NCBI GenBank assembly: GCA_003162635.1
Contig: PMNE01000043.1
Coordinates: 1-38,189 of the forward strand
Origin: Ignavibacteriota bacterium
GTDB taxonomy: Bacteria > Bacteroidota > Ignavibacteria > UBA10030 > UBA6906
DNA length: 38,189 bases
Direction of reading: 5' to 3'
Shown here: positions 30,190 through 35,441 of the stretch, piece after piece
Numbering within the stretch: the first letter of the stretch is position 1
Layout of the letters: each line of letters begins with the position of its first letter
Program-made: the position numbers and the translations under genes
The notes under the pieces: generated by a model
What the model was told of the DNA's origin: nothing
The model's input: only the letters and a program-made list of their open reading frames with translations
Database searches by the model: none

Positions 30190-30663
30190 TCAGGGATCGG
30201 GAAGCCGCGCATACTCGACGAAATCGAAATCGCCGTGCTCTTCGCGAAATCGCTCGGCGAAGCGCGTCCCGAGGAGATGTTCATAGGGAGGGAAGAAGAC
30301 GTCCCCCTTGACCTCCTGATGGACCAGCGTCAGGTAGATCTCATCGGCCATCTCGAGCACCTGCGCAAAGACATTCCCGCCTCCGATGACAAACACCCGT
30401 CCGGCATCACGAAGAGCGGCAAGTGCCTCCTCGATTGTCCTGTAAGACTCAACTCCCTCAATGGCCGTCGAACTGATGACGACATTTCGTCGGTTCGGGA
30501 GAGATCTCCCCAACGATTCCCACGTCTTGCGCCCCATAACAACAGGATGACCGGTGGTCAGCCGTTTGAAGCGCTTGAGATCCTCGGGGATGTGCCATGG
30601 CATCGCGTTCCCGTTCCCGATGATGCGATTTCCGGCGATCGCCGCTATCAAAGCAAGGATCAC
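30190..30663 (-). CDS. folA: Dihydrofolate reductase
   Basis: 157 residues, standard length. IIGNGNAMPWHIPEDLKRFK holds the Met20-type loop and the catalytic acid D28. VMGRKTWESLG and VFVIGGGNVF bind NADPH. It regenerates tetrahydrofolate from the dihydrofolate produced by ThyA. The ATG overlaps the thyA stop by 4 bp, so the two enzymes are translationally coupled. Confidence 0.95.
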   Translation of the reverse strand: MILALIAAIAGNRIIGNGNAMPWHIPEDLKRFKRLTTGHPVVMGRKTWESLGRSLPNRRNVVISSTAIEGVESYRTIEEALAALRDAGRVFVIGGGNVFAQVLEMADEIYLTLVHQEVKGDVFFPPYEHLLGTRFAERFREEHGDFDFVEYARLPDP

Positions 30664-31472
30664 ACCGCCACCTCAAACTTGATCGGCTCGTACGGCTCAT
30701 ACCCTGTCAGAGAGAAATGCTCGAACCGAAGCTGATCGATCGGCACTCTCTCGATCGCAAGGTGGGGAAGCGGCTTCGGCGTGCGCTTCATCTGTTCCTT
30801 CAAGCCGTCGATATGATTGACGTAGATGTGCGCATCCACGATGGTATGACTAAACTCCCCGAGCGCAAGCCCCGCTTCCTGGGCGAGGATCTGTGTCAGG
30901 AGCGCGTAAGCAGCCACATTGAACGGTATCCCGAGGGCGATGTCGCCCGATCGCTGCGTCAGATGGCAATGAAGGCGGCCTTGCTGGACATTGAAGGCGA
31001 ATGTGTAGTGACAGGGGGGGAGTTTGCTGCTCAGGGCGTTCCCCGGTTCCCATGCCGTCACGACCATCCGACGTGAGTTCGGATCGGTCTTGAGGAGTTC
31101 AATGACTTTGCCGATCTGGTCGACCTCCGCCACCTCATATTTTCCTGTCGCCGGATTGATCTGTGCGCTGGGGAAGCGGCGCCAGTACCGGCCATAGGCG
31201 GTTTCCAGACGGCCGTTCTCGTCCGCCCATGCGTCCCAGATCTTTGTGTGTTTCTGCAGATTGCGGATGTGGTCTTCACCGGAAAGGTACCAGAGTACCT
31301 CGTACAACATGGAGTTGAAGTTGACCCTCTTCGTGGTCAGGAGCGGATAACCGTTCTGCAGATCCACCCGGTAGTGCTCGGCGAAGCACGAAATGGTGTC
31401 GATGCCGGTTCTGTTCTTCTTCAGGGTCCCCCGTGTCAGAACACGCTCGACCAGGTCAAGGTACTCGCGCAT
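30660..31472 (-). CDS. thyA: Thymidylate synthase
   Basis: 270 residues from ATG 31472. The catalytic cysteine is C154 in LPPCHYTFAF, followed by the dUMP/folate-binding QRSGDIALGIPFNVAAYALL and the DAHIYVNH motif. It methylates dUMP to dTMP using methylene-tetrahydrofolate and yields dihydrofolate for FolA. The frame remains open upstream for 380 codons, but that part is antisense to the neighbouring repeat-protein gene and is not credible. AGGAGG lies 14 nt before the ATG, with GAGAG nearer. Confidence 0.96.
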   Translation of the reverse strand: MREYLDLVERVLTRGTLKKNRTGIDTISCFAEHYRVDLQNGYPLLTTKRVNFNSMLYEVLWYLSGEDHIRNLQKHTKIWDAWADENGRLETAYGRYWRRFPSAQINPATGKYEVAEVDQIGKVIELLKTDPNSRRMVVTAWEPGNALSSKLPPCHYTFAFNVQQGRLHCHLTQRSGDIALGIPFNVAAYALLTQILAQEAGLALGEFSHTIVDAHIYVNHIDGLKEQMKRTPKPLPHLAIERVPIDQLRFEHFSLTGYEPYEPIKFEVAV

Positions 31473-31559
31473 GGCAGCTCTCGCTCTCCTCCTGCACCAT
31501 CGATAACTCCGAACCCCGGCAGGTCTTCCCGGGCTCGTGCTCCGCTTCAATTTCCCTCC

Positions 31560-31588
31560 AATGTATTGCGAAAACCTCCGACAAGCAA
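31560..31588 (-). promoter_or_regulatory. Candidate thyA-folA promoter
   Basis: On the minus strand, TTGCTT (31588-31583), a 17-nt spacer and TACATT (31565-31560). The leader to the thyA ATG would be about 80 nt. The rest of this 240-bp divergent gap shows nothing further. Confidence 0.3.
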
Positions 31589-31712
31589 GAAAAACAAGCC
31601 AAAACACCGGATTTCCCCGCCGTTGAGAAGATGATCTCCGCAACAACCGCCTTCCCCCCCCGTATGACAGTATCAGGGAGTAGAACGAACTTCGCTGATC
31701 GAAAGTCAGACT

Positions 31713-33602
31713 ATGAACCATCCGAGTTATGTGAAGTGCCTGGGGAACCTGGTGTTCCTGATGACCGCTCTGGCATCCGGTGCGGTGGCCGGCGAGAAAG
31801 CGATCGCCTCTCTCCATGACATGTCCGACGTGGAATTGAAGGAGACCGGGTTCACGATGCAAATCGGGGCTCCTGTCCATATCAAAGCAGTCGGTGCCGG
31901 GGGCGACTACGGGTGGACATACAAGAGCGGCGACATGTTCGCCTATGCGTGGGTCATCAATGCCGATACGCGCCAGGTAGTGTGGGAGATGACGGCGGAC
32001 AAGACCTCGAAGGTGAAAAGCGATCGGACGCTCGACGGCGTCATCAATCTCCCCGCGGGATCGTATGAAGTGTATTTCAGCGCGGCTGTCTTTGCCTACC
32101 ACACTGCGTTCACCCATATTCAGGTCGACGTCGATCACCGGCAAGATCCACTTTTCGGAGCGGGACGGAGGGAGAGGAACGATTTTTTCGGCTGGCTCAA
32201 GGGCTGGTGGTCCGACGACATCGCAAACGAATGGAACAAGCGTTCGAAGCAATGGGGCATCGACCTGCTTGTCGACGAGTCCGTTCCAGTATGGAATTTT
32301 CAACCGCCGAAGCAGCGTGAGAATGTTGTCTTCGCCGCGACACCGCTGGGAGACAACGAAAACATTCGCCGTGGGTTTGCCCTCAGTGCCCCCATGACTC
32401 TGACGATCGATGCTGTCGGGGAAGGACGTACAGAGGGAGAATTGAACGATTTCGGCTGGATCGTCAACAGGGCGGACCGGCGGCGCGTATGGGAGATGTC
32501 GTTCCAGAATAGCTCTTGGGCGGGTGGGGCGCAGAAGAACATCCGGTCGAAAGCACAAATCTCTCTCCCGAAAGGGGAGTATGTGCTGTACTATGTGACC
32601 GACGGAAGTCATTCCATGACGAATTGGAACGACAATCCCCCCTACGATCCCTTCGCGTGGGGAATCACGCTCAGCGCGGCTTCGGAGAAGGAAATGAAGG
32701 CGTTCAGACTGGTCCCCTATACGGAGGACCAGAATGTCATCGTATCTCTTGTCCGTGCAAGGGACAACGACTATAAGTCATCCGGCTTCGTCCTCAGGGA
32801 AACGGCGGAGCTCCGCGTGTATGCCATCGGAGAGCTGGGTAGCTCCCGCCGCCAAATGGCGGACTATGGGACCATCCTTGACGCGAACACGCGTACCAAG
32901 GTGTGGACGATGGACTTTCACCGCACCCTGCCGGCAGGAGGAGATGTCAAGAACCGGTTCATCGATGAAGTGATCACGCTCCCGCGCGGAAGTTATCTTG
33001 TGACGTACCAAACGGACGATACCCACAGCTACGGCTCATGGAATGCGGACCCTCCCTTCGACCAGGAACATTACGGCATCACTGTCATGGGGGCGGGCGA
33101 CAACTGGGATCCCTCCATTGTCTCGCCATACACGGAAGAGAGGGAGAAGAATATCGTCGCGCAGATCATCAGGCCCGGAGACAATGTCGATGTGAGCCGT
33201 GCATTCAGTCTCGACAAGGTGACCAGACTCCGGATCTACGCAATCGGCGAAGGGCAGAACAGGGAGATGTACGACTATGGCTGGATCGAAGACGCTCGCA
33301 CAGGGAGCACGGTGTGGGAAATGACCTATGGCATGACCTTCCACGCGGGAGGGGGTCGAAAAAACCGCATGGTCAACACGACAGTCCTGCTCGATAAGGG
33401 GAATTATCGCCTGCGCTTCAAGAGTGACGATTCACATTCCTTTGGGAACTGGAATGTCGATCCGCCGGAGGACCAGCAGTTTTGGGGGATCACCGTGTAC
33501 CGTGACGACGGGACGCTCCCGCCTGTCGCGCCGCATCAACCTCGCGCGCCTCTGCCTCCAGATGCGCCGCGCGGGGAGGATCCGGCCGATGGGGAAGAAT
33601 AG
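31713..33602 (+). CDS. Secreted protein of four tandem beta-rich repeats, function unknown
   Basis: 629 residues. A signal peptide (1-26, ending AVA) leads into four related modules of about 120 residues: roughly 28-145 (the most divergent, followed by a Trp-rich insert to 185), 203-322, 340-460 and 478-597. Each module contains AIGEG-like, D(Y/F)GWI, (V)WEM, a basic RKN or QKN spot, a LPxGxYxLxY strand, T/SDDSHSxxxWNxDPPxD and WGITV. A Pro-rich, acidic tail (about 602-629) closes it. I know no family with certainty; the pattern suggests an extracellular or periplasmic beta-sandwich array. No sorting domain is seen. The 3' end overlaps the pseudouridine synthase gene on the other strand. Confidence 0.8.
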   Translation: MNHPSYVKCLGNLVFLMTALASGAVAGEKAIASLHDMSDVELKETGFTMQIGAPVHIKAVGAGGDYGWTYKSGDMFAYAWVINADTRQVVWEMTADKTSKVKSDRTLDGVINLPAGSYEVYFSAAVFAYHTAFTHIQVDVDHRQDPLFGAGRRERNDFFGWLKGWWSDDIANEWNKRSKQWGIDLLVDESVPVWNFQPPKQRENVVFAATPLGDNENIRRGFALSAPMTLTIDAVGEGRTEGELNDFGWIVNRADRRRVWEMSFQNSSWAGGAQKNIRSKAQISLPKGEYVLYYVTDGSHSMTNWNDNPPYDPFAWGITLSAASEKEMKAFRLVPYTEDQNVIVSLVRARDNDYKSSGFVLRETAELRVYAIGELGSSRRQMADYGTILDANTRTKVWTMDFHRTLPAGGDVKNRFIDEVITLPRGSYLVTYQTDDTHSYGSWNADPPFDQEHYGITVMGAGDNWDPSIVSPYTEEREKNIVAQIIRPGDNVDVSRAFSLDKVTRLRIYAIGEGQNREMYDYGWIEDARTGSTVWEMTYGMTFHAGGGRKNRMVNTTVLLDKGNYRLRFKSDDSHSFGNWNVDPPEDQQFWGITVYRDDGTLPPVAPHQPRAPLPPDAPRGEDPADGEE

Positions 33603-34208: not shown

Positions 34209-35441
34209 TCAGCGGCTTCGCTTGATGACGACGAGCGTTTTGTCGTCGGAGTAATCAGTCACGCGGTCATGGATCTGGACCTCCTCGATAATGAGTTGGC
34301 AGATCTCCCGGGGTGACCTGTGCTGGTTCTCCTGAAGCTTCTGGATCAGCCGCTGTTCTCCGTACATCTCCCGGTTGTCGTTCGTCGCCTCGGAAATCCC
34401 GTCGGTGTACATCAGGAGAATGTCGCCCCGTTGCATGATCGTGAATTCCGTCCTGTATTTTTCCTGGGGAAACGGCCCGATGATCTGGCCCGTCGCGCTG
34501 AGCGTCTCGGTCTCGGTAGTTGCGGCCCGGAGCAGGATCGGATTGCTGTGGCCCGCATTGACGTAGGAAACCAATCCGTTTTCCGAATCGGTGAATTCCG
34601 CGTACACCATGGAGATGAAGTGCTCCGGCGTGAAGGTTTTTCCCACCATCCGGTTCAGCCGTCCAATGAGAGAACTCATCTTGGTCTGGAACTCAACCCC
34701 CATCCGGAGGGCGCCTGAAACATAGAGGGCTTGTGCAGCCGCAGAGAGTCCCTTGCTGGCGGCGTCTCCGATCACTACGCCAAGCCGGTCCTTGTCGTCG
34801 CTCGCCTGCAGATAATCAAAGAAATCCCCTCCGACGATCCGTTCCGAAATCGAAATCCCGTAGAGGTCGTACATGCCGAATTTCAATTCATGCGCCGGCA
34901 GAATGCTCCGTTGGATTTCGCGGGCCTTGTCGAGATCGCGCTCCAGCGCCTCTGCCTTCGTCTCGCTCCTGCGACGCGACAGCGACGATGTCAGCGCGCT
35001 GCCGATGATGTTCAGCGCGTACAACATGTCGTGCTTCAGAAAGTTGGCGTTGATGGCAAGAACGTATTGGTAGAGCCGGTAGGATTTCCAGGCGATTTTT
35101 TCCCCCACGCCCGTTGCAGAGTAATGGACGATCCCCTTCTTCCGGAGATACCGGTTGGTCTCGGTATCGACGATCGTCCCCCTTTTGTCGAGTTGAAGAA
35201 ACATCGGGTAATCATGAACCCTGATGCGGAAATTCTTTTCGATCGCCTCCATTTCGCCGTATTGCCGGAGGAGGCGGTACGTCCCGTTTGCGGCGTCAAG
35301 CTTCCAGATCCGGCCTCCGTTGATGGCGATGTCCTCGTTGACGATGATGTTTTCGAGGACGTATCCGAGGAGTTGTTCCTCCGTCCGGAATTTTGCCTCG
35401 CTGAGGAGTTTGATCGTTCGGTATAACTTATGCTGGTCCAT
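34209..35441 (-). CDS. PP2C-type (SpoIIE/RsbU) serine phosphatase with N-terminal sensor region
   Basis: 410 residues. The N-terminal part (about 1-150) is GAF-like in size and pattern, a helical linker with EIQRSILP (176-182) precedes the phosphatase as in RsbU/RsbP, and the PP2C SpoIIE domain spans about 190-408. Metal-binding aspartates are D206 (VGGDFFDY), D226 (IGDAASKG), YTDGISEA and YSDDKT. Such enzymes usually dephosphorylate anti-sigma-antagonists; no STAS or RsbW-like partner is in the window. It sits 18 bp after the DUF1684 lipoprotein gene. Confidence 0.86.
   Translation of the reverse strand: MDQHKLYRTIKLLSEAKFRTEEQLLGYVLENIIVNEDIAINGGRIWKLDAANGTYRLLRQYGEMEAIEKNFRIRVHDYPMFLQLDKRGTIVDTETNRYLRKKGIVHYSATGVGEKIAWKSYRLYQYVLAINANFLKHDMLYALNIIGSALTSSLSRRRSETKAEALERDLDKAREIQRSILPAHELKFGMYDLYGISISERIVGGDFFDYLQASDDKDRLGVVIGDAASKGLSAAAQALYVSGALRMGVEFQTKMSSLIGRLNRMVGKTFTPEHFISMVYAEFTDSENGLVSYVNAGHSNPILLRAATTETETLSATGQIIGPFPQEKYRTEFTIMQRGDILLMYTDGISEATNDNREMYGEQRLIQKLQENQHRSPREICQLIIEEVQIHDRVTDYSDDKTLVVIKRSR

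Follow-up and report, generated by a model that had tools for sequence, protein, structure and literature searches.

A four-module exported protein of an Ignavibacteriota bacterium, its predicted jelly-roll module shared with Reg_prop sensors, and a possible link to SpoIIE-type signalling

The window considered here, a stretch of 38,189 nucleotides from an Ignavibacteriota bacterium (contig PMNE01000043.1), contains a gene for a 629-aa protein made of four modules, whose parts are listed in Table 1. Its signal-peptide-like N-terminus, called by eye from hydropathy, is the only hydrophobic segment of the protein. A first-pass annotation made from the letters alone had described the product as secreted, and this start agrees with export, but the protein may be periplasmic instead of extracellular. 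Mean column identity is 53% across 30 relatives, so this is a real gene that is held under constraint. At 33539-33602, its 3' end is shared with that of a convergently oriented pseudouridine synthase gene on the minus strand, which extends to 34192, and part of the Pro-rich acidic tail is therefore encoded within the overlap. Also on the minus strand, a 650-codon frame (30660-32612) runs from a thymidylate synthase gene back into the first half of the module gene; because the synthase itself starts near 31580, the rest of this frame appears to be open by chance.

Table 1. Features of the module gene and the neighbouring phosphatase gene, with positions in the window
Feature	Position	Strand	Basis
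Gene for exported 629-aa protein of four modules	31713..33602	+	ORF; relatives in 46/60 sampled genomes
Signal-peptide-like N-terminus, residues 1-26, ending ...LASGAVA, followed by GEK	31713..31790	+	hydropathy; conserved AGE junction of relatives
Module R1, residues 29-190	31797..32282	+	scaffold retained, conserved polar residues gone
Trp-rich helix in R1, residues 158-177	32184..32243	+	AlphaFold secondary structure; consensus of relatives
Module R2, residues 204-323	32322..32681	+	AlphaFold, profile, inter-module alignments
R2 loop DGSHSMTNWNDNPP, with D297, S299, H300	32601..32642	+	
R2 site residues E237, D246, N276, D297, H300			
Module R3, residues 341-460	32733..33092	+	AlphaFold, profile, inter-module alignments
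R3 loop DDTHSYGSWNADPP, with D435, T437, H438	33015..33056	+	
R3 site residues E374, D384, N414, D435, H438			
Module R4, residues 480-598	33150..33506	+	pLDDT 98 when folded alone
R4 loop DDSHSFGNWNVDPP, with D572, S574, H575	33426..33467	+	
R4 site residues E513, D521, N551, D572, H575			
Pro-rich acidic C-terminal tail, residues 599-629	33507..33599	+	pLDDT mostly <50; absent or different in relatives
Soluble SpoIIE-type phosphatase, two genes downstream	34209..35441	-	PF07228, E 9e-43

The four-repeat organization proposed in the first-pass annotation is upheld: the open reading frame lies where it had been placed, and local alignments between the modules score beyond a control of 500 shuffles. 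R2, R3 and R4 align with one another at scores of 201-278, against shuffled maxima of 50-65. R1 aligns with the other modules at 81-108 (shuffled maxima 57-76) and is recovered at E 1.7e-10 by a profile built without any R1; since these scores exceed the shuffled maxima, R1 is, as judged by alignment, a true but weak fourth copy of the module. All the motifs that had been named were found in the protein. The proposed module length of about 120 residues fits R2-R4 (about 114-120 aa) but not R1, which an insert extends to about 160. The description of the first copy as degenerate and carrying a Trp-rich insert was borne out, as R1 is devoid of the conserved polar residues and bears a Trp-rich helix (consensus among relatives FFxWLxxWFxDDxxxEWxKRS) in the place of the DDSH..WN..PP loop of the other modules.

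At the structural scale, AlphaFold, supplied with 30 aligned relatives, models the whole protein at a mean pLDDT of 85, with one sandwich per module, and R4 modeled alone on an alignment of 70 modules is a jelly-roll sandwich with a pLDDT of 98.2. Separate beta-sandwiches, the arrangement for which a structure prediction had been suggested, are therefore what the models contain, and a single large fold was ruled out because AlphaFold folds the modules separately. Fold searches with Foldseek were made using a single module, as the full-length model gave nothing informative. The nearest PDB folds are CUB, CBM6, GOLD and PPC-type or PPC-like domains, with TM-scores of about 0.5 and none at E<1e-3; the top match is the CUB domain 1szb (TM-score 0.53), with other jelly rolls close behind. 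The viral fold library returned no match to the module at E<1e-3, PDB sequence searches gave no significant match, and no Pfam, NCBIfam or PHROG model scored above cut-off for the module protein. According to its predicted structure, the module is a jelly-roll domain without a close solved relative. The first-pass annotation had left the repeat without a family, and no searched library recognizes it.

Although absent from these libraries, the module is common across the phylum. Its profile matches 67 of 395 sampled genomes, the full-length profile matches 52 of 296, and relatives of the protein were found in 46 of the 60 genomes searched, nearly always as a single gene. The module is present in most genomes of the source organism's own order; in the source genome, it is confined to the gene described here. 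Named relatives come from metagenome-assembled genomes labeled Bacteroidetes/Bacteroidota, Ignavibacteriae and Chlorobiaceae, and no phage or plasmid relatives of the protein were found. Four modules is the usual form, and the loci of one family (f43) have three. Two genomes, G269 (loci L164 and L177) and G383 (L167 and L176), each carry two differing multi-module paralogues, only one of which is seen beside a SpoIIE phosphatase; the contig of L164 is short.

Within the phylum, large proteins (about 1250-1580 aa) also contain one copy of the module, embedded together with Reg_prop and Y_Y_Y domains. In most cases, it follows roughly the third blade of the apparent second Reg_prop propeller, as an insertion, and in P0002 it lies N-terminal of a single transmembrane or hydrophobic segment. 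The outputs of the module-bearing sensors that were scanned are a SpoIIE phosphatase, a HisKA/HATPase histidine kinase or a hybrid kinase-regulator-AraC assembly, and one such hybrid sensor (L042) is from the source organism's own family. In the tree, the embedded modules come together in one clade (support 99/89), so that a single fusion event is the simplest reading; this clade groups with a single-module protein and with module 4 of the stand-alone proteins from family f7. A small single-module protein (L084, 4916-5434, open frame of 173 aa) lies beside the propeller clade in the tree. At another locus (L078, 4975-19800, genome G274), four module-bearing Reg_prop genes follow one another, of which the locus contains three in full, as a local amplification. 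Given its position in the extracytoplasmic part of some bacterial sensors, the module probably serves in binding or sensing. Among the papers searched, none mentions 'two component regulator propeller' together with 'SpoIIE'. Altogether, the existence of the domain, its spread and its fusions to sensors are firm.

The most conserved polar residues of the module are Glu30, Asp39, Asn69, Asp90 and His93 (profile numbering). Across about 76 distinct tandem proteins and 20 propeller modules, these five are 85-100% kept in each set, that is, in modules at positions 2, 3 and 4 and in the propeller-embedded ones. All five are gone from R1, which keeps the scaffold residues Trp53, Gly81 and Tyr83. By DSSP, the site residues fall where strand C ends, where D and F begin and directly after G, all at one end of the sandwich. 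The Asp/Ser/His/Trp/Asn motif, earlier suspected to form a shared loop site, is indeed located there on loops with the conserved Glu, Asp and Asn, and this predicted placement fits a metal or ligand site.

The nature of such a site is suggested by CUB domains (PF00431), which are small beta-sandwiches of about 110 aa and include the top PDB fold match of the module. Ca2+ is bound in MASP-1 by E49, D57, D102, S104 and N105 of CUB1 and by E216, D226, D263 and S265 of CUB2 (PMC5300068), and in the CUB domain of TSG-6 by E183, D191 and D232 (PMC4661386). The module spacing, E-x7-9-D and D-x-S/T-H, is similar to that of the Ca2+ ligands in the CUB domains of MASP-1, MASP-2 and TSG-6 (PMC5300068; PMC4661386), but in the module the WN..PP loop that separates the DxSH motif from the last strand is longer. 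By analogy, the candidate site would most likely accommodate a divalent cation, as CUB sites do, plus a ligand from the envelope or medium; the site may work like that of a CUB domain, and the module is not claimed to be one. It seems quite unlikely that the modules are true, highly divergent CUB domains unseen by profile libraries, a proposal that concerns family membership and not function. Fold matches to CUBs and the agreement in acidic ligand spacing speak for membership, and the only segment aligned by hhalign pairs G.Y.L.Y.SDDSHS with CUB G.L...F.SD in the expected register. However, the hhalign comparison with 13 bacterial CUB domains (probability 1.9%, score 17.0) falls within the shuffled controls (95% at 14.3, maximum 17.3), so that CUB homology by profile comparison is not significant; moreover, PPC, CBM6 and GOLD folds match about as well, and the Pfam CUB profile has no match in the protein, its relatives or the 70 modules.

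A further finding, besides the sensor fusions, concerns the gene neighborhood. At 18 loci from ten families (f23, f33, f40, f41, f43, f46, f49, f50, f54 and f55), a divergent GAF-SpoIIE phosphatase gene is found immediately upstream of the multi-module gene. The linked phosphatase has several hydrophobic segments, as expected of a membrane protein, and STAS and/or HATPase (HATPase_c_2) genes lie beyond its gene at most of these loci. Genomes counted in the linked families have 3-10 SpoIIE genes each, which makes repeated chance adjacency unlikely. Flanking housekeeping genes (ubiE, prmA, ppx and mrp) are partly kept in the linked lineages, so the linkage may partly reflect inherited gene order. 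In the window, only the soluble SpoIIE gene is near, two genes off, and it stays near the module gene in other members of the source organism's family; the membrane phosphatase has its relative on another contig (C90). Such a relative occurs in 16 of 16 module-bearing genomes tested, compared with 19 of 32 genomes in which no module was detected (Fisher p 0.002, for genomes that are related to one another). The phosphatase thus does not need the module, and co-occurrence was rejected as proof of partnership, for which it gives weak support, both for this reason and because of the relatedness of the genomes.

From the computed repeats, predicted fold, residue conservation, domain fusions and gene linkage, we infer metal binding, a ligand, a location and a direction of coupling (pathway sensor or controlled product). 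The protein would be an exported, probably periplasmic, binding protein of four jelly-roll modules, in which R2, R3 and R4 would each offer one candidate cation-dependent site and R1 would retain the fold without the site, with the Trp-rich helix instead. The three sites would sense the envelope or the medium, and the protein would feed a SpoIIE-type phosphatase pathway (Rsb-type partner switching). That an exported cation-dependent binding protein reports the state of the envelope or medium to SpoIIE-type signaling is proposed tentatively, as a reading that stops a little short of probable. An input to the SpoIIE pathway is suggested because the module is built into Reg_prop sensors with such outputs, and because the multi-module gene is paired divergently with membrane GAF-SpoIIE and STAS/HATPase genes in related lineages.

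The main rival of this sensor reading is that the protein is an effector, an envelope-protective or surface-binding protein whose gene is among those activated by the neighboring Rsb-type pathway and whose modules bind a glycan or envelope polymer. The divergent promoter arrangement suits co-regulation as well as sensing, and the jelly-roll fold matches include CBM6 domains. In families f2 and f3, an Omp85 barrel gene is found downstream instead, on the same strand and adjacent in all six f2/f3-type loci, within about 20 bp of the module gene in most of them, which points to the outer membrane. Fusion of the module into sensor ectodomains nevertheless favors sensing, and some module-bearing genomes have no SpoIIE linkage; an effector role is possible, if somewhat unlikely. 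The Omp85 neighbor could also be taken to mean that the protein is an outer-membrane structural or assembly factor working with the barrel, its conserved residues stabilizing loops through structural Ca2+ with no external ligand. The tandem architecture would suit such a factor, and the Trp-rich helix could contact the membrane or a partner, but other families are without an Omp85 neighbor and the propeller-embedded form is without an Omp85 part, so that this role is considered quite unlikely. In L088 (7375-8820) and L148 (7411-8808), which come from two families of the same taxonomic order, an Omp85-type barrel gene follows the module gene, apparently in one operon.

To our knowledge, the signals of Gram-negative SpoIIE/STAS/HATPase pathways are mostly unknown. 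If the sensing role is true, the protein would be a candidate input for these pathways in Gram-negative bacteria, and two forms of the module, one soluble and multi-site, the other fused and single-site, could be compared side by side. It could further be proposed that the module represents a sensory domain family of Bacteroidota-like bacteria that depends on Ca2+ and has not been described before. It would serve both as an ectodomain built into Reg_prop phosphatases and kinases and, as a tandem periplasmic protein in its own right, as the input to a membrane SpoIIE phosphatase that has no ectodomain; in this full form, the proposal is unlikely.

Besides CUB domains, several known families were compared with the module. 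DUF5013 (PF16405) gives a sub-threshold match to the protein (E 1.7e-5, 25.4 bits against a cut-off of 28.5), but the best stretch covers profile positions 48-88, only 41 of 149. When modules were scanned singly, 1 of 70 matched, and the single-module protein L084 reached 26.7 bits (cut-off 28.5). Among the papers searched, one names DUF5013. A scan of 148 genomes from the phylum found no DUF5013, leaving no true member for comparison, and membership was rejected because the match is below the gathering threshold and covers the profile in part. PPC (PF04151) and CBM6 domains belong to the same jelly-roll fold class as the module; for PPC there is no Pfam match and hhalign is not significant against shuffled controls, and no CBM6 model matches the protein or its modules. 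The 629-aa protein was also scanned for the propeller repeats, transmembrane segment and signaling output of Reg_prop two-component and hybrid sensors (e.g. Bacteroides HTCS), and has none of them. It differs from these sensors as a stand-alone tandem array, but the module itself is common to both, since Reg_prop sensors of related genomes embed it.
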